A DNA stretch of 44,798 nucleotides, taken from NCBI GenBank assembly GCA_016212855.1, contig JACRDP010000013.1, positions 1 to 44,798 on the forward strand, given 5' to 3'. Each line of letters starts with the position of its first letter. Positions within the stretch are counted from its first letter, which is position 1. The notes below the pieces were generated by a model, which saw only the letters and a program-made list of their open reading frames with translations, searched no databases and was not told where the DNA came from. Below, piece by piece: positions 1 through 35,821 of this stretch. The DNA comes from Elusimicrobiota bacterium. Its GTDB lineage: Bacteria; Elusimicrobiota; Elusimicrobia; UBA1565; UBA9628. A program made the translations under genes and the position numbers.

Positions 1-56
1 CTTCACTATTCGAACAATTCTCTAAGAGAATTGTTCGAATAGTGAAGCCTGACCCC
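1..56. repeat. Long inverted repeat E1 (cut by window start)
   Basis: Bases 1-47 are a perfect palindrome: 23-base arms (1-23 and 25-47) around a single A at 24. The right arm continues into CCTGACCCC (48-56), so the left partner GGGGTCAGG should lie just outside the window. The element ends 3 bases before the stop codon (59-61, minus strand) of the first gene. It shares its outer tip with the elements at 8374-8452 and 35743-35821, but its interior sequence is unrelated to theirs. It may act as a transcript-end hairpin or be a mobile or REP-like repeat; function is unknown. Confidence 0.85.
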
Positions 57-8373: not shown

Positions 8374-8452
8374 TGGTGTCAGGCTTTCGGTTTTAACTTT
8401 TTCTTCGAAATCCGACCTCGAGAAAAAAGTTAAAACCGAAAGCCTGACACCA
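8374..8452. repeat. Long inverted repeat E2 with GGTGTCAGGC tips
   Basis: The left arm, about 30 bases from 8374, starts TGGTGTCAGGCTTTCGG. The right arm (8422-8452) ends CCGAAAGCCTGACACCA. They match exactly except for one extra A/T pair in the inner A/T run. The loop (~8404-8421) contains a second short TCGA/TCGA pairing. The element fills the space between the rpmE terminator (8467-8494) and the prfA start. The outer ten bases resemble those of the repeats at 1-56 (GCCTGACCCC) and 35743-35821 (GGTGCCTGGC), while the inner arm sequence is unique to this copy. Confidence 0.9.
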
Positions 8453-8466
8453 ACCTACAAAAGAAG

Positions 8467-8494
8467 CGGGCCCCGGCCTTTCGGCCAGGGCCCG
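8467..8494 (-). terminator. Terminator hairpin after rpmE
   Basis: CGGGCCCCGGCC (8467-8478) pairs with GGCCAGGGCCCG (8483-8494) with one mismatch, around a TTTC loop. On the minus strand the stem is followed by GCTTCTTTTG, a broken T tract, 17 bases after the rpmE stop. The plus strand also has TTTT at its end, so it could work in both directions. Confidence 0.7.
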
Positions 8495-8510
8495 TTTTGG
8501 AGTCAGTCCG

Positions 8511-20402: not shown

Positions 20403-23400
20403 TCAAGGCTTGACCTTCAACATCATCCCATCGGAGTGCGCGGTCATCTCCGGCGCGTACATCGATTGCAGCACGGCCGCGCCGATGCGGTAGGTCCCGG
20501 GCGTGGTCGGCCGCACGCGGTAGGAGAGCTTGTACTCGCCGTGCGGCAGCCAGTCGATGAAGAAGTTGGTCAGCGAGTCGCGCGGCTCCTCGTAGCGCGA
20601 GAGGAGGTCCCACTTCCAGCCCGAGCGCAGCTCCTCGGCCTCGAAGCCCGCGCCGCGCGGGTCCTTGAGCTGGACGTACTCGAACTGCGAGCGCGTCTTG
20701 ACGGTCAGGCGCACCTCGATGGTGTCGCCGACGGCGACCGTCTCTCCGGAGGATATCGGCTGAAGCCGATATCCCGATACGCCGGTCTTGTCGCGGCGGA
20801 AAAAGGTCCGCTCGACTTCCAGCATCCCGGCGCCGGAAGCCTTGGGGATTTGGTCGGTGCTGTAGATCCATGTTAAGGAAGCGAAAGCGAAGCCGGGACC
20901 GGTCTTATCGATGACGGCCTTGCCCTGGCCCTCGCGGACCTCGGAGCCCGTCTTCGTCCAGCGCAGGGGTGCCTCGAGCCAGTCGAGCGGCTCGACGCGG
21001 GCCGTCTCCGTGTCGGGGCCCCACTTGATCTTGAAGTCGTCGCCCTTGTCGAGCGCGCCGCGCGACTTGAGGATGTCGAGCAAGGAGTAGATCGCGGCGG
21101 CCGAGGCGCGGGTGGACTTCCACTCGTTGCCCTTACGATTGAATAACAGCCACTGGACCATGCCCGGGATGCGCGGATCCTTGGGCTTCATCGTCAGCAA
21201 GGTCCGCAGGAAGAAGGCGTGCTTCTCGACCGTGTCGTTGTACCACAACCAGGAGATTTTCTCCGGCGCCCAGTACGAGCCCGCGATCGGATCGGTGCGG
21301 AGCCCGTCGAGGGCGCGCGCCAAATAATTATCCGCCTTGTCCTTCTCGCCCAGGCGCCAGTACACGTAGGCCGCGTAGCCGCGGCCGAACGGGGTCAACG
21401 CGTCGCCGTGCTTGTCGGCGTAGTCGGCCCAGACCTTGGCGAAACGCCAGCCCTGCTCGGCGCCGGGCATGGTCTTCGGGAAGGAGGTGACGACGTAGGC
21501 CGAGTACAGGATCAAAGCGATCTCCCCTTCCTCGGGCTTCATGTGCTTGGGTATCTCATTGTTGGCGTAGGCCAGCGCGCGCGAGACCACCTCGGCGGGC
21601 GGCTGGACGCCGTAGCGTTGGGCCTCGGCGAAGCCGGCGAGCACGAGCATGGTCATGTACGGGCTCGGGCGGCCGCCGGGGAACCAGGGGAAGCTGCCGT
21701 CAGGAAGCTGGTAGGCCTTGAGCTTGCTCAGGGAGTCGTCGAGTTCGGCCTCCACGATCTTGGGATCGAACATGTCGACCAAGGGCCAGATCGTTTTACG
21801 TCCTTTCGAGATCTCTTCCCACGGCGACTCCATGAGCCGGGTCAGGCGGCGCGGGTCGTTGCGGTCCCAGGCGGGCGTGAGCGTGTCGCGCTTGGGAATC
21901 TTCTTCGTCGCGGCGGCGAGCGCCGGGTATTTCTTGTAGAAGGCGTTGACGATGGCCAAAGGCACGTAGCGGTCGAGGACCTGCTCGGTGCATTCGTACG
22001 GATAATGAATGAGCGAGGGCAGGGAATTGAGGATGATCAGCGCCAGCTGCGGGTCCACCTGCAGATGGATCGACTCGTGTTCGCGCGTCGGGTCCGGCGT
22101 CGCCCACGTGGGTAAGGTCAGAACCTTGCGCAAAGCGCCGTCGAGGACGACGAACGCCGTTTCGATGAGGCGTTCGCGAGAGGGCAAGATCGGAAGCTCA
22201 CGCTCCTCGGCGTCGGCCAAAGCCCCGGAGCGGGCGATCGCGCGGATCAGAAAGGTCGTCGTGCCGCGCGGCGCCTTCACGGTCCAGGACAGGGGCGCGA
22301 TCCCGTGCGGTTTCGCGGTGAACGAGACGGTCGTGCCGGTCAAGCCGAGCTTGGCCGCCGCGTCTTTGCCGTCCTCGGTGACCGCGAGCGTCACTTCTCC
22401 TATCAACGGAGCCCCGGTTTCGTTGTGGACGATCGCCTGAAGCAGGCCTTCATCGCCTTCGCGGTAGAAGCGCGGCATCTCGACGCGAACCATCAGCTCC
22501 TTGCGGGTGACGGACTCGGCCTCGACGGTCCCGCGCTTGACGTCGCGCGTGAGCACGACGGCGCTCGTCTTCCAGCTCGTCAGGCGCTCGGGCGCCTTGA
22601 ATTTGAAGAACGCATTTCCATCCTTAACCTTGAGGTGCGCGTCGAAGAAGGCGGTCTCGGAGAAATCCTTGCGTGACGCGACCGGCGGCTCCGCCGGCTT
22701 CGCCTCGTTTTTGGCTCCGGCGTCCTTGCGCTTGGCCATCCCCTCCTCGCGGGCCTCGCTGAGACGCGCCGGGGCCGAGGCGGGCGCAGACCGTGAAAAG
22801 GCCATGCCCGCTCCGCCGATCATGTCCATTTCCTGGTCCAGGGCGCCGGACGCCGCGCCGCGCACGGCGGCCAAACCTTTGTAGCGCCCCCCGAATCCCG
22901 GCCGGTATACCCGGCTGCGGTTGAGGCGCAGGCCGGGTTCCACGGGCTCGCGGATCGCCTCGTAATAGAGGTCCAGCATTTTCTTAACCCAGCCCGTCTC
23001 GACGGGCATCTGATGGCCGTACGGATTGAACAGCGAGCCCACGGCGGGACTGTAGGTCCAGCGCGGAACGTAAAGAGAAGAGGTCCAGTCGCCCGCGCCC
23101 GCGGCGTAATACTCGAGTGAGCGGTCGTAGACGCGCACCGCGGCTTCGCCGGAGACGGGCTTGTCGGCGCGGTCGCGCACGGACAAGGACCAGGAGACGG
23201 CCTGGCCGGGCTTCATCACCGCGTCGTGGCGCAGCTTGACCGTCAGTTCGCGATCCTTCCAGGGCACTTCCACGCGGACCTGGCCCGCTCGGATCGCGAA
23301 GTCTTTGGCTCCGAACCAGCGCACGGTGAAGCCGCCCTTGTGGTCGTCGCCCACCGGAATCTCGAGCGTCTGCACGCCGCCGCCGCGCACGACGCGGCGC

Positions 23401-26318
23401 GCGAGCAGGTTCTGGCCGCCCCAGATCTCGACGAACATGGGCTTCGAGAGGCCGGAAGAGCCGATGAGCAGGCGCGCGGTCTCGCCGCGCAGGACGGTCG
23501 CGTGTTCGGCCAAGGAGACGGACGGCAGGCGCAGGCCCGTCCGTCCGGTGCCGGCGGAGAGCACTATGACCGACTGCTCGACGTCGGCGGCCCTCACGAC
23601 GAGGCGGTACGCGCCCTCGGACAAACCGGCGAAGCGCGCGTCGACGGCCTTATCCTTGGAAAAGCGGAGCTTGCCGGCCGCGGCTTCGACGCCGTTGGGC
23701 ACGTCCTTGTAGAGTTGCTCGAGCGAAGGGCTGTCCGTGAAGTGACCGCCCCATTGCGGATCCCCGGGCGCGGCGGGCGGGTCGTTCTCCAGACGGTAGA
23801 GGGTAAACGAGCCGGCGCCGTCCTGGGTCTGCTCGTTGAGATTGAGCAGCTTGAGCGCGACCGAGTACGCTTTGCCGGCGCGGGCGAAGCCGGCCGCAGG
23901 CTCGATGGACAGCAGATATGATTTTTCACCGGCGGTGAAGGAACGCGACGCGGTGATCGTCCGGCCGCCGGGATCGCGGGACTCGACGTTGACGGTGAAG
24001 CGCGAGGGCGGGCCGTTCTTCGCCGACGGATCGTGCGGCTGAGGCGTGAAGGAGAAGGAGAATTTTCCGTCGGCCCCGGTCTTCGCATCCCCCCGCGCGA
24101 CCTCGGCGTCGCCGCGGCCGGCCCACTGCCAGCGCCACCACCAGCAGAACCAGGGGATGTACACCGAGCGCGTGATCGTCCAGCTCACCGGCGCGTCCGG
24201 CACGGCGCCGCCGAAGTAGTATTTCGCGTCGCCCGTCACCGACACGGCGCGGCCGTAGCGCCACACCCCGGTGCTCTCGTCGACCTTCACCTCGAATTCG
24301 GGACGCTTGTACTCCTCGACCGCGAACTGCAGGCCGCCGGAGAAATTGAGGTCGAAGTCGGAGATCGACGCCGACGCGGAGTACTGGCCGAGGAGGCGGC
24401 CGGTCGGAATCAGGCACGAGATCGAAGCCGAGCCCATCGCGTTGAGCTGCAGCACGGACTTGCACAGCTCCTGGCCGTTCGCGTCGCGCACAAACACCGT
24501 CGCTTTCGAGAGCCCGTCGTAGACCTTGTAGCCGCGGGGAATGCGGCGCAGGACCGTGGTCTTAACCTTGACCGTCTGACCGGGACGGTAGATCGGCCGA
24601 TCGGTTTCCAGGTGCAGCTCGATGGGAGCCGGGACCATTACGTTGAAATAGGATGGCGATTGCCAATACGCGCTGCTGTCGCCCGAGCGCGCGAGCGGAT
24701 CCAGGGAGAAGCTCCGCGAGTTGGAGTAGACCAGGCTCACCTCGACGGGGACCTCGGCGAGGCCGCCCGCGTCGGCCGTCAGCGCCAGCCGCTCGGCCTG
24801 GCTCCAATTCGTGCGCTTGAACGCGTCGATGGTGGCACCGGCCGCGGGCTCGCCGGTCAAGGCGTTCACCGCGTACAGATGGAAGCCGGGGACGTTTCTC
24901 ACCCGCGGCCCCTGGGGATCAAAAATGAATTCGCGTTCCGGGCCCTGCGGCCCGGACGTGCCGATCAAAAAAAGCTCGGTCACGTTCACGAACACCGCCG
25001 TCAGCAGCGAGGAGCCGATCTTGGGCCGCGCGTCGTTGCTGACGAGCGCCAGGTAAATTCCGGGCGTCAGCGCCGGAGGCGTCGCCTGCGTGTCGGCCTG
25101 CTGGTATGGAGCCGGAGCCTTGATTTGGACCGAATAGCTCGAGGCGGGCTCGCGCGAGAGATAGTCGGACACGAGTTCCTTGTCCGCGCCGCGCACGACC
25201 GACCACTCTCCGCCACGACGCCGCGAGTACCGTTCGAGATCCTCGGGGCTCACGCGATGCAAAGCGACGTAAGCGCGGTCCAGGTTGCGCGTCGACAGGC
25301 GCAGGATGTCCTTGCCGGGCGGCGGCGCGAAGCGCCCCGAGGCGGACAAGGTCGGCAGTTCGATCTGGGCGCGAAGCTTGGCGGCGGCCTTGGCCGCCCG
25401 GGCCGGAATTTTCTCCACGATCTTGCAAAGCTCGACGGCGTCGCCGGGAAGACCGTCCTCGTTGAGCAGGAAGGCCGCCTGATAGCCGGCCTCGCCTTTG
25501 GCCGCGTCGGTCGCGAAGGAGCCCATCCAAGCGCGCAGTTGGGCGATCGCGGCCTTGCGCGCCGCCTTCCGTTCCTCCGGAGTCTGAGCGGCGGACGGAT
25601 GGCGCACGGTCAGCAGCAGGCGCTGGATGCGCCACATCTCGCGGACCGTCTCGCGGCCCTCGCCGCCCATGCGCGCGGCTTCCTCATAAACGACCCCGGC
25701 CCGAGCGACGGGCGGATCCTGGCCCGGGTCGCTGGGCGCCTCGGTGAGAAGGAACCCGGTCCAGCGCAGGACCGCCAAGTCCCATAAAGTCGGGGCAAGA
25801 GAGGCGTCCGCGTCCTTCAAGTCCACGAAATAGGCCTCGTCCTCGATGCGGCGCGCGGACAAGGGGGCCCGGATCGCCCACAGCTGCTGATAATCGGCGC
25901 GCAGGTCGCTTTGCCATTGCGCGCGCGTGCGCTTGGTCAGATCCTCAGCCTCCTGCCCGTCTGATTCCTCCTCCGTGTCCGTGGGCGCGGCCCAGCCGTA
26001 CTGCTTCAGGTATTCGCGCGCGAGCTCGGTGCGCAGGAGCAGGAAGCGGCCGCGCCAGACCGGATCGGACGGAAGCTTTTCGGGGAATATACGCTGCGCC
26101 GCCTCGGCATAACGGAACAGAAGGGCCTGGGATTCGGCGGCGCGGTACAAAGCGGTGAGCCGCTCGTCGCCCGAGGCGGACTTCAGGACCGCCTCGTACT
26201 CCTGCAAGGCCTCCTGATAGAGCTTCTTCTCGAATTGGGCGTCCGCGGCCTCCAAGCCTGCGTAGGCGGGACGGACGGCGGACGCAAGGACGGCGAGAAC
26301 GAGGAGGATTCGTTTCAT
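20403..26318 (-). CDS. Bacterial alpha-2-macroglobulin, periplasmic, thioester type
   Basis: A 1971-residue giant that should trap or block proteases attacking from outside. Residues 1-20 are a signal peptide (MKRILLVLAVLASAVRPAYA). No lipobox Cys follows, so it is probably soluble rather than a lipoprotein like E. coli YfhM. Residues ~21-300 are helical and TPR-like (ALQEYEAVLKSASGDERLTALYRAAESQALL). Macroglobulin beta-domains follow, including LETDRPIYRPGQTVKVKTTVLRR (MG2) and the ALPHA-2-M signature block around SFTAKPHGIAPLSWTVKAP. The thioester CTEQ is intact at C1443-Q1446 (YPYECTEQ), inside the helical complement-like domain. The C terminus is the receptor-binding-like domain. The usual partner PbpC is not in the window. 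It ends the glycan gene run with a 4-base gap to the gene before it. Confidence 0.9.
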   Translation of the reverse strand: MKRILLVLAVLASAVRPAYAGLEAADAQFEKKLYQEALQEYEAVLKSASGDERLTALYRAAESQALLFRYAEAAQRIFPEKLPSDPVWRGRFLLLRTELAREYLKQYGWAAPTDTEEESDGQEAEDLTKRTRAQWQSDLRADYQQLWAIRAPLSARRIEDEAYFVDLKDADASLAPTLWDLAVLRWTGFLLTEAPSDPGQDPPVARAGVVYEEAARMGGEGRETVREMWRIQRLLLTVRHPSAAQTPEERKAARKAAIAQLRAWMGSFATDAAKGEAGYQAAFLLNEDGLPGDAVELCKIVEKIPARAAKAAAKLRAQIELPTLSASGRFAPPPGKDILRLSTRNLDRAYVALHRVSPEDLERYSRRRGGEWSVVRGADKELVSDYLSREPASSYSVQIKAPAPYQQADTQATPPALTPGIYLALVSNDARPKIGSSLLTAVFVNVTELFLIGTSGPQGPEREFIFDPQGPRVRNVPGFHLYAVNALTGEPAAGATIDAFKRTNWSQAERLALTADAGGLAEVPVEVSLVYSNSRSFSLDPLARSGDSSAYWQSPSYFNVMVPAPIELHLETDRPIYRPGQTVKVKTTVLRRIPRGYKVYDGLSKATVFVRDANGQELCKSVLQLNAMGSASISCLIPTGRLLGQYSASASISDFDLNFSGGLQFAVEEYKRPEFEVKVDESTGVWRYGRAVSVTGDAKYYFGGAVPDAPVSWTITRSVYIPWFCWWWRWQWAGRGDAEVARGDAKTGADGKFSFSFTPQPHDPSAKNGPPSRFTVNVESRDPGGRTITASRSFTAGEKSYLLSIEPAAGFARAGKAYSVALKLLNLNEQTQDGAGSFTLYRLENDPPAAPGDPQWGGHFTDSPSLEQLYKDVPNGVEAAAGKLRFSKDKAVDARFAGLSEGAYRLVVRAADVEQSVIVLSAGTGRTGLRLPSVSLAEHATVLRGETARLLIGSSGLSKPMFVEIWGGQNLLARRVVRGGGVQTLEIPVGDDHKGGFTVRWFGAKDFAIRAGQVRVEVPWKDRELTVKLRHDAVMKPGQAVSWSLSVRDRADKPVSGEAAVRVYDRSLEYYAAGAGDWTSSLYVPRWTYSPAVGSLFNPYGHQMPVETGWVKKMLDLYYEAIREPVEPGLRLNRSRVYRPGFGGRYKGLAAVRGAASGALDQEMDMIGGAGMAFSRSAPASAPARLSEAREEGMAKRKDAGAKNEAKPAEPPVASRKDFSETAFFDAHLKVKDGNAFFKFKAPERLTSWKTSAVVLTRDVKRGTVEAESVTRKELMVRVEMPRFYREGDEGLLQAIVHNETGAPLIGEVTLAVTEDGKDAAAKLGLTGTTVSFTAKPHGIAPLSWTVKAPRGTTTFLIRAIARSGALADAEERELPILPSRERLIETAFVVLDGALRKVLTLPTWATPDPTREHESIHLQVDPQLALIILNSLPSLIHYPYECTEQVLDRYVPLAIVNAFYKKYPALAAATKKIPKRDTLTPAWDRNDPRRLTRLMESPWEEISKGRKTIWPLVDMFDPKIVEAELDDSLSKLKAYQLPDGSFPWFPGGRPSPYMTMLVLAGFAEAQRYGVQPPAEVVSRALAYANNEIPKHMKPEEGEIALILYSAYVVTSFPKTMPGAEQGWRFAKVWADYADKHGDALTPFGRGYAAYVYWRLGEKDKADNYLARALDGLRTDPIAGSYWAPEKISWLWYNDTVEKHAFFLRTLLTMKPKDPRIPGMVQWLLFNRKGNEWKSTRASAAAIYSLLDILKSRGALDKGDDFKIKWGPDTETARVEPLDWLEAPLRWTKTGSEVREGQGKAVIDKTGPGFAFASLTWIYSTDQIPKASGAGMLEVERTFFRRDKTGVSGYRLQPISSGETVAVGDTIEVRLTVKTRSQFEYVQLKDPRGAGFEAEELRSGWKWDLLSRYEEPRDSLTNFFIDWLPHGEYKLSYRVRPTTPGTYRIGAAVLQSMYAPEMTAHSDGMMLKVKP

Positions 26319-35742: not shown

Positions 35743-35821
35743 TGGTGCCTGGCCGTTCGAAGTTGCAAAGTGCAGGCGCGTGAATGACAGGCGGCTTGCA
35801 ACTTCGAACGGCCAGGCACCA
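35743..35821. repeat. Long inverted repeat E3 with GGTGCCTGGC tips
   Basis: Arms of 26 bases match perfectly: the left arm (35743-35768) starts TGGTGCCTGGCCGTTCG and the right arm (35796-35821) ends CGAACGGCCAGGCACCA. The loop is 27 bases (35769-35795). The repeat ends 3 bases from the hddC stop codon (35824-35826). Tip sequence is shared with E1 and E2; the inner arm sequence is not. Confidence 0.9.

Follow-up and report, generated by a model that had tools for sequence, protein, structure and literature searches.

The three long foldbacks of a 44,798 nt stretch of DNA from an Elusimicrobiota bacterium (contig C7, positions 1-44798; hereafter the window) are very probably non-autonomous, REPIN-like miniature elements of TIRYT/RAYT-type Y1 (HUH) transposons of subclass 2.1. 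Each arm would be an element end composed of a common 10-nt tip (GGKGYCWGGC) and of a family-specific stem that fits one transposase. The autonomous form, found in sister species, carries the transposase gene between two such arms (800-879 bp), and the miniature form retains only a short middle, from none to ~26 nt beyond the 28-nt arms. We infer that the enzyme cleaves the hairpin as single-stranded DNA, at the foot that brings the two tips together, and that it moves miniature copies in trans. The need to fit one and the same enzyme at both ends would keep the arms alike, whereas the middle of the hairpin would be free to drift. In related species a gap with a former hairpin is often filled by another one, perhaps because narrow gaps beside a stop or start codon are favoured landing places, perhaps because the resident hairpin is. 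The argument is drawn from sequence comparison: stems shared among dispersed copies, arms found on Y1 genes of sister species, co-divergence of enzyme and arm, presence or absence at orthologous positions, changes carried by both arms, and the same gap filled by different families.

Foldbacks of the window and their stem families

An inverted-repeat search of the whole window returned these foldbacks as its top three inverted repeats (Table 1). Folded as single-stranded DNA, the three elements have z values of -11.8, -12.6 and -13.4 relative to shuffles. The nearest end of a long minus-strand frame lies 2 nt (1-56), 7 nt (8374) and 2 nt (35743) away; the frame list is mechanical, and other listed frames overlap two of the three elements. 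The left tip of the 1-56 element is missing because the contig begins inside the hairpin. No Rfam family matched in the window at gathering score. The longest open frame of the window (1971 codons) is found at 20403-26318 on the minus strand.

Table 1. Coordinates of the three window foldbacks and of their parts.
Feature	Position	Strand	Details
Family B hairpin arms	1-23/25-47		23 nt per arm, 100% match
Family B hairpin element	1-56		stem CTTCACTATTCGAACAATTCTC; right tip 47-56 = GGGGTCAGGC on the minus strand
Family A hairpin arms	8374-8408/8418-8452		35 nt per arm, 94% match
Family A hairpin element	8374-8452		element proper 8375-8451; tip GGTGTCAGGC
Family A stem	8385-8400		TTTCGGTTTTAACTTT; middle ~8401-8425 not shared among copies
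Left tip, 8374 element	8375-8384	+	GGTGTCAGGC
Right tip, 8374 element	8442-8451	-	GCCTGACACC on the + strand
Family E hairpin arms	35743-35768/35796-35821		26 nt per arm, 100% match
Family E hairpin element	35743-35821		element proper 35744-35820; tip GGTGCCTGGC, stem CGTTCGAAGTTGCAA, middle 35769-35795
Left tip, 35743 element	35744-35753	+	GGTGCCTGGC
Right tip, 35743 element	35811-35820	-	GCCAGGCACC on the + strand

The window belongs to a genome of 2.5 Mb, in which the tip 10-mer (GCCWGRCMCC, that is the GGKGYCWGGC type) was counted 69+67 times, compared with 25+30 for a reversed-pattern control. The tip pair GGTGYCWGGC-N32..62-GCCWGRCMCC is found 23 times in forward and 24 times in reverse orientation, the control giving 0 and 0. 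A preliminary description of the window had reported three near-perfect foldbacks between genes that share this tip pattern; foldbacks and tip are both confirmed, far above chance. Thirty genomes were compared in all (G000 is the window's own, G001 and following are relatives). Tip-pair hairpins are present in 11 of the 19 genus genomes, own genome included, and in 2 of 11 other genomes of the order. From 13 genomes 166 elements were extracted, 25 of them from the window's genome; this number covers the elements readable in the sequence stretches used for extraction, and pattern matches left out of it amount to 2 of 17 in G001, 4 of 14 in G006, 4 of 8 in G015, 1 of 31 in G007 and 1 of 3 in G019. 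Perfect 26-nt arms characterize 119 of the 166 elements, although extraction demanded the 10-nt tips only.

Ungapped clustering of stems distributes the 25 own-genome hairpins among seven clusters with 7, 7, 4, 3, 2, 1 and 1 members. The stem of the 8374 element (TTTCGGTTTTAACTTT) belongs to a cluster of 7, the one of the 1-56 element (TTCACTATTCGAACAA) to another cluster of 7, all of them complete and the truncated window copy not counted, and the 35743 stem to the cluster of two. Members of one family have the stem in common and differ in the middle (loop). The same holds in sister species, for example in G016, which has 14 copies with stem CTCCCATTATCCCATT. The inner arms had initially been taken as unrelated and private to each element, a view that does not survive this comparison: the three window elements come from three different families and therefore looked private, and it is the middle that is.

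The 8374 element is an insertion relative to related genomes. The same two-gene spacer is short and hairpin-free in the 9 relatives compared, and neither arm nor loop of the element is found in these orthologous empty spacers. The comparison of occupied with empty sites that had been called for gives no support to the idea put forward with it, namely that the tips prime a local copy-back, and neither do the arms shared among copies. A loop captured from the target, with the arms flanking target DNA, was discarded as the 8374 loop is absent from the 9 empty spacers. Beside the 8374 element, at window positions ~8466-8497, the sequence GGGCCCCGGCC...GGCCAGGGCCCGTTTT forms a GC hairpin with a T run after it, in the manner of a terminator; similar terminator-like hairpins are seen at the empty sites in most of the 9 relatives.

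All elements combine two inverted units and a variable spacer that form one hairpin. This organization, together with the Y1 association described below, recalls an ordinary GTAG-type REP/REPIN family, an identification that we find hardly credible and that, taken strictly, is already refuted. The foot is GGTG or GGGG and not GT[AG]G (the search required GGKG; GTAG or GTGG is found in the foot region of 27 of the 166 elements), and single arms do not fold: 8 of 8 folded no better than shuffles, only the whole element forming a hairpin. Five of the 332 tips are GGGGTCAGGC and the remainder GGTG, a proportion to be read with the search patterns in mind since they favoured GGTG. Element length is bimodal (n=166), with 48 elements of 63-69 nt, 94 of 74-82 nt and only 4 of 70-73 nt; elements of 83-113 nt were found at only 7 places in 19 genomes. 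Helical phasing of the length was considered and is not claimed, the periodicity measure being flat from 10.5 to 16.

Two further repeat features were observed. Another palindromic repeat, whose arms read TTGATAA(G/T)CACT, is present in G000 and G003 (L019, L005/L006/L063, L010, L372, L236) and is apparently unrelated to the GGTG tips. In one G011 family (for example L336, L345, L057 and L108) each tip is preceded on its outer side by an additional border, CGTTANAG. This border, seen in that one family only and not taken as a general trait, complements the first stem bases CTAACG, in the manner of a guide/target pair of IS200/IS605 ends.

Y1 transposase genes and their arms

Matches to PF01797 (Y1_Tnp) were found in 25 of the 30 genomes. 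Thirty of the 42 genus Y1 matches were read with their flanks: in these sister-species loci inverted tips are present on both sides of 14 genes, on one side of 7 and on neither side of 9. The arms of the two-sided copies are 800-879 bp apart. The relation to Y1 (TnpA-REP) transposases that had been suspected at the outset is thereby borne out, as far as sister species are concerned. The Y1 HUH core motifs NH[YF]H and Y[IV]HxNP are present in the encoded proteins, and all six proteins tested match PF01797 (E 6e-13 to 4e-8). For NCBIfam NF047646 (REP-associated tyrosine transposase, cut-off 80 bits) one of the six scores above the cut-off (91.2) and five below (62.5-78.7). As to a C-terminal HTH, one of the six matched HTH_23 and HTH_28 below the curated cut-off and another gave a weak MarR match. 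A search by sequence of one transposase against solved structures gave no match. The right arm is present in 19 genes; the reading frame stops inside it in 6 and reads through it in 13 (L042, L250, L258 and ten others), to stop 3-49 nt outside the element. In the read-through genes the arm thus encodes the tail of the protein and the host supplies the stop codon.

For 14 of the 21 arm-bearing genes, their own genome contains a hairpin that differs from the arm by at most 2 of the 16 stem positions. Matched examples occur in G007 (L250, CTCCC; L252, ATGTCG; L047, CTAACGG), G016 (L258, CTCCC; L034, TCGCAAATT), G011 (L253) and G006 (L262). For the other 7 (L040, L050, L243, L257, L259, L260, L261) the sample from their own genome contains no close hairpin. 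Across all 21 genes, protein distance and arm distance are correlated (Mantel r = 0.72); none of 2000 permutations reached this value, to which common ancestry may contribute since no correction for it was applied. With many enzyme/end pairs within one genus, the code that relates a transposase to its DNA end becomes readable and testable.

Four genomes (G008, G012, G013, G014) have no match to the genus profile better than E 1e-60 and no tip-pair hairpin, and four others (G002, G004, G010, G017) have a Y1 gene and no tip-pair hairpin. The search for a Y1 gene proposed earlier was successful in sister species and not in the window's own genome, where neither PF01797 nor the genus profile found a match; since this assembly is 72.7% complete, absence of the transposase is not proven. 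The hairpins of this genome may be orphans. Two of its contigs stop at hairpins, C7 starting inside one and C22 ending with one (G000:C22:9102-9177). The assembly may thus have been interrupted by these repeats, which might account for the missing transposase genes.

The strict GGTGTCAGGC pair pattern extends beyond the genus: among the matches listed, named genomes belong to Elusimicrobiota, Pseudoduganella, Massilia, Anaerocolumna, Neobacillus, Niallia, Omnitrophota, Planctomycetota, Verrucomicrobia and others. The arms match past the tips in many of these loci and in some they do not. In the loci outside Elusimicrobiota (at most 8 kb each) a single Y1-like frame was recognised by motif (L139), with no arms at its ends, so that the link to the enzyme is established only in the window's genus.

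Two-arm changes and the filling of orthologous gaps

The preliminary description had reasoned that the arms must either be kept alike or be newly made, and this proved well founded. The 17 clusters with at least three copies comprise 133 of the 166 elements and 2128 stem cells. Departures from the cluster consensus are identical in both arms at 76 of these cells, confined to one arm at 49 and different in the two arms at 6. Independence of the arms would give 5.3 two-sided cells. When each change is counted once there are 43 distinct two-sided and 37 distinct one-sided changes. Mismatches between the arms amount to 11/996 at positions 11-16 versus 87/1660 at positions 17-26. Transversions were considered as a sign of two-arm change in one step and dropped, as their shares are too similar (27/43 two-sided, 20/37 one-sided).

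Identity of the arms could also be due to template switching or quasi-palindrome correction within the hairpin during replication, a local snap-back that owes nothing to the fit with a transposase. Two-sided changes do include neighbouring double changes, and the G000 singleton L091 resembles a variant of the TTCACTATTCGAACAA group without the same two bases in both arms; a mechanism of this kind is described for RNA hairpins in the available part of PMC8794818. We nevertheless regard snap-back as an unlikely cause. Arms that lie ~0.8 kb apart in transposase copies match as well as those of hairpins: 16-position arms are perfect in 9 of 14 transposase copies and 119 of 166 hairpins (p = 0.32, a small sample), with a mean of 0.50 mismatches in the 14 copies and 0.59 in hairpins, so that correction across a short loop is not needed. 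Furthermore, dispersed copies share their stems, which is beyond the reach of local copying. Fit of both ends to one enzyme is therefore the explanation that we prefer.

Hairpins that stay at a fixed position can be followed in 9 ortholog pairs (5 sites) with homologous loops. Gaps left out, stems agree at 315 of 322 positions (97.8%), loops at 144 of 173 (83.2%, biased upward because the pairs were picked for homologous loops) and the two near flanks at 453 of 518 (87.5%) and 455 of 499 (91.2%). Fixed copies seem to decay more slowly than their surroundings, and selection for mobility alone does not explain this stem conservation. It would agree with hairpins retained by the host for their structure, in RNA or in DNA, be it to protect 3′ ends, to terminate transcripts or to bind proteins, their mobility being incidental; the location beside stop codons and the filling of one gap by different hairpins (see below) would agree as well. 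Such a role for the host seems to us quite improbable as the main explanation: hairpin-free gaps are common (the 8374 site in 9 relatives, site B below in 9 of 16 genomes), structure alone needs no stem sequence common to a family, and the window has no match to an Rfam family.

Orthologous gaps were identified by matching 500-nt flanks between genomes, which gave 72 pairs with both flanks, corresponding to 34 sites and 85 elements; ~6 site pairs are expected by chance from 11,934 cross-genome pairs with an assumed 2000 gaps per genome, the pairs not being independent. Stems were counted as different when a pair agrees at fewer than 10 of the 16 positions; this is true of 46 of the 72 pairs, random cross-genome pairs averaging 6.8. 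At 24 of the 34 sites, filled in at least two species, at least one such pair is found. Homology of the loops at p<0.01 was detected in 9 of 16 same-stem pairs and, among different-stem pairs, in 1 of 36, a number that rises to 3 of 36 at p<0.05; for the remaining 20 pairs the loops were not comparable. The elements of different-stem pairs thus generally differ as a whole. Rewriting of the arms as a general rule was accordingly rejected, since these pairs share loops no more than chance; the exceptions that point to it are L285/L299 and, weakly, the G003/G015 pair at site B. Gaps in sister species often hold different hairpins, as if new ones had replaced old ones.

Two sites illustrate this diversity. 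A tree built from 3.4 kb beside the 8374 element groups G003 and G016 as sisters with full support, the placement of G007 being weakly supported. At site A, where 11 of the 16 genomes with a match were inspected, CTCCC hairpins are present in G016 and G007, a CTCCCGTTATCCC variant in G001 and other families in G003 and G015. In G011 a CTCCC-type piece (CAATGGGATAATGG) immediately adjoins a CTAACA hairpin, and G008 has no hairpin; G006 is uninterpretable, and G010, G005 and G017 show one flank or none. Site B lies just upstream of a conserved start codon and was inspected in 16 of 19 genomes. Hairpins with stems that are partly related and partly different are found in G016, G003, G007, G015, G000 and G006; 9 of the 16 genomes have none, and G011 shows one flank. 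Between the sisters G016 and G003 (L423 and L422) the interior is inverted, with 23 of 25 positions matching when flipped versus 15 of 25 directly, and the tip also differs on both sides (GGTG/GGGG). The G015 and G003 interiors match at 28 of 32 positions directly and at 26 of 33 when flipped, but their outer stems are unlike in both arms. With the loop taken by itself, 2000 shuffles gave a score as high 4 times (direct) and 27 times (flipped). As the inner stem is nearly symmetrical, this likeness is only suggestive.

Shared gaps could be hotspots that are hit independently, because few gaps tolerate insertion or fit a target preference, older hairpins being irrelevant. This reading has roughly an even chance of being correct. 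The junctions are AT-rich, with A at position -4 in 51% and T at -1 in 47% of 331 junctions, and elements at shared sites lie near stop or start codons (judged by eye). The non-homologous loops of different-stem pairs (see above) imply that most are separate insertions. The left and right flanks of 164 elements are no more complementary than permuted ones (mean 4.62 versus 4.61), which argues against recent nesting in most copies. Remnants beside and within elements are less easily reconciled with independent hits. Arm 12-mers are enriched in the near flanks, 10/330 compared with 1/329 and 0/326 further out, and 5 of these 10 pieces correspond to arms that are not among the elements of that genome, with two clear cases: the CTCCC-type piece in G011 at site A and GCAAAGAACGAC (ATGTCG type) beside the CTACCG element L089 in G000. 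In two G003 elements (L374 on C72 and one on C84) the outer hairpin is intact and surrounds a second, decayed hairpin. Head-to-tail tips are found at 11 places in 5 of the 19 genomes (control 0). L373 (G003:C135:57083-57157) consists of a lone left arm and, immediately after it, a complete hairpin, the outer right arm missing, and L363, L364, L365, L368 and L372 have arms of two families without right partners.

We propose only tentatively, and with more doubt than conviction, that a gap is inherited as a hairpin slot whose content is overwritten, in a succession at fixed addresses. A new hairpin would land in or beside the resident one, whose loop is single-stranded during replication, and the old arms would then be lost. 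Alternatively, both arms might be rewritten in place to follow the resident transposase, the loop being kept. Either way, sites within the genus that are empty, hold one family or another, keep a remnant or are inverted can be compared as they occur in nature, and they bear on how hairpins spread, on the likeness of their two arms and on their mutual replacement.

Comparison with known Y1-associated repeats

A search of open-licence papers with the tip 10-mers found none on these repeats among the matches listed. The element layout, an inverted doublet with a diverse spacer that forms one hairpin, is that of REPINs, which are thought to be mobilised by Y1 enzymes and for which compensatory changes have already been noted (Bertels and Rainey 2011, PMC3116915, in the part available). 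REPIN ends are, however, palindromic REPs, whereas the present elements have non-palindromic arms and fold only as a whole.

TIRYTs, or TIRtrons, are Y1 genes of a RAYT-like type that lie between long terminal inverted repeats. As presented in the accessible portion of Di Nocera et al. 2013 (PMC3733652), one genome can have several TIRYT genes with different TIRs (three in K. versatilis), there are moderately abundant TIR families that match their own gene (two in S. maltophilia), and many TIRs occur in dimers, some self-complementary, with the common motif GGGGWSAS. Many of the present genes resemble them in lying within long inverted repeats and in having gene-matched families, and the tip GGGGTCAG fits GGGGWSAS. 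Most tips, in contrast, are GGTGTCAG or GGTGCCAG and do not fit this motif at position 3. Changes in both arms and different families in orthologous gaps are absent from the description in that portion of the source.

Quentin et al. 2018 (PMC6006769) report, in the section available, no REP-like sequences near genes of TnpA-Y1 subclass 2.1 (RAYT group 1); a REP family proper to each tnpAREP gene, and coevolution of the two, are stated there for other subclasses. The transposases found here resemble subclass 2.1 in their Y1 core with NHFH and Y[IV]HxNP, in their length (mostly 238-280 aa) and perhaps in a C-terminal extension with weak HTH similarity. They differ in that many of the genes lie inside inverted arms and have dispersed miniature copies. 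The widespread enzymes of this subclass, reported in that section without REP-like partners, would thereby gain a clear candidate substrate population.

A parallel for the filling of gaps is the orthoswitch, in which the REP class beside an orthologous RAYT gene changes from one related strain to another (Nunvar et al. 2013, PMC3686654). According to the same available text, the older REP classes of a genome may be displaced in part by new ones. The orthoswitch concerns REPs that flank RAYT genes, whereas here different families are found at gaps devoid of a transposase gene, in 24 of 34 sites. A counterpart at such transposase-free gaps does not appear in the accessible part of that account.
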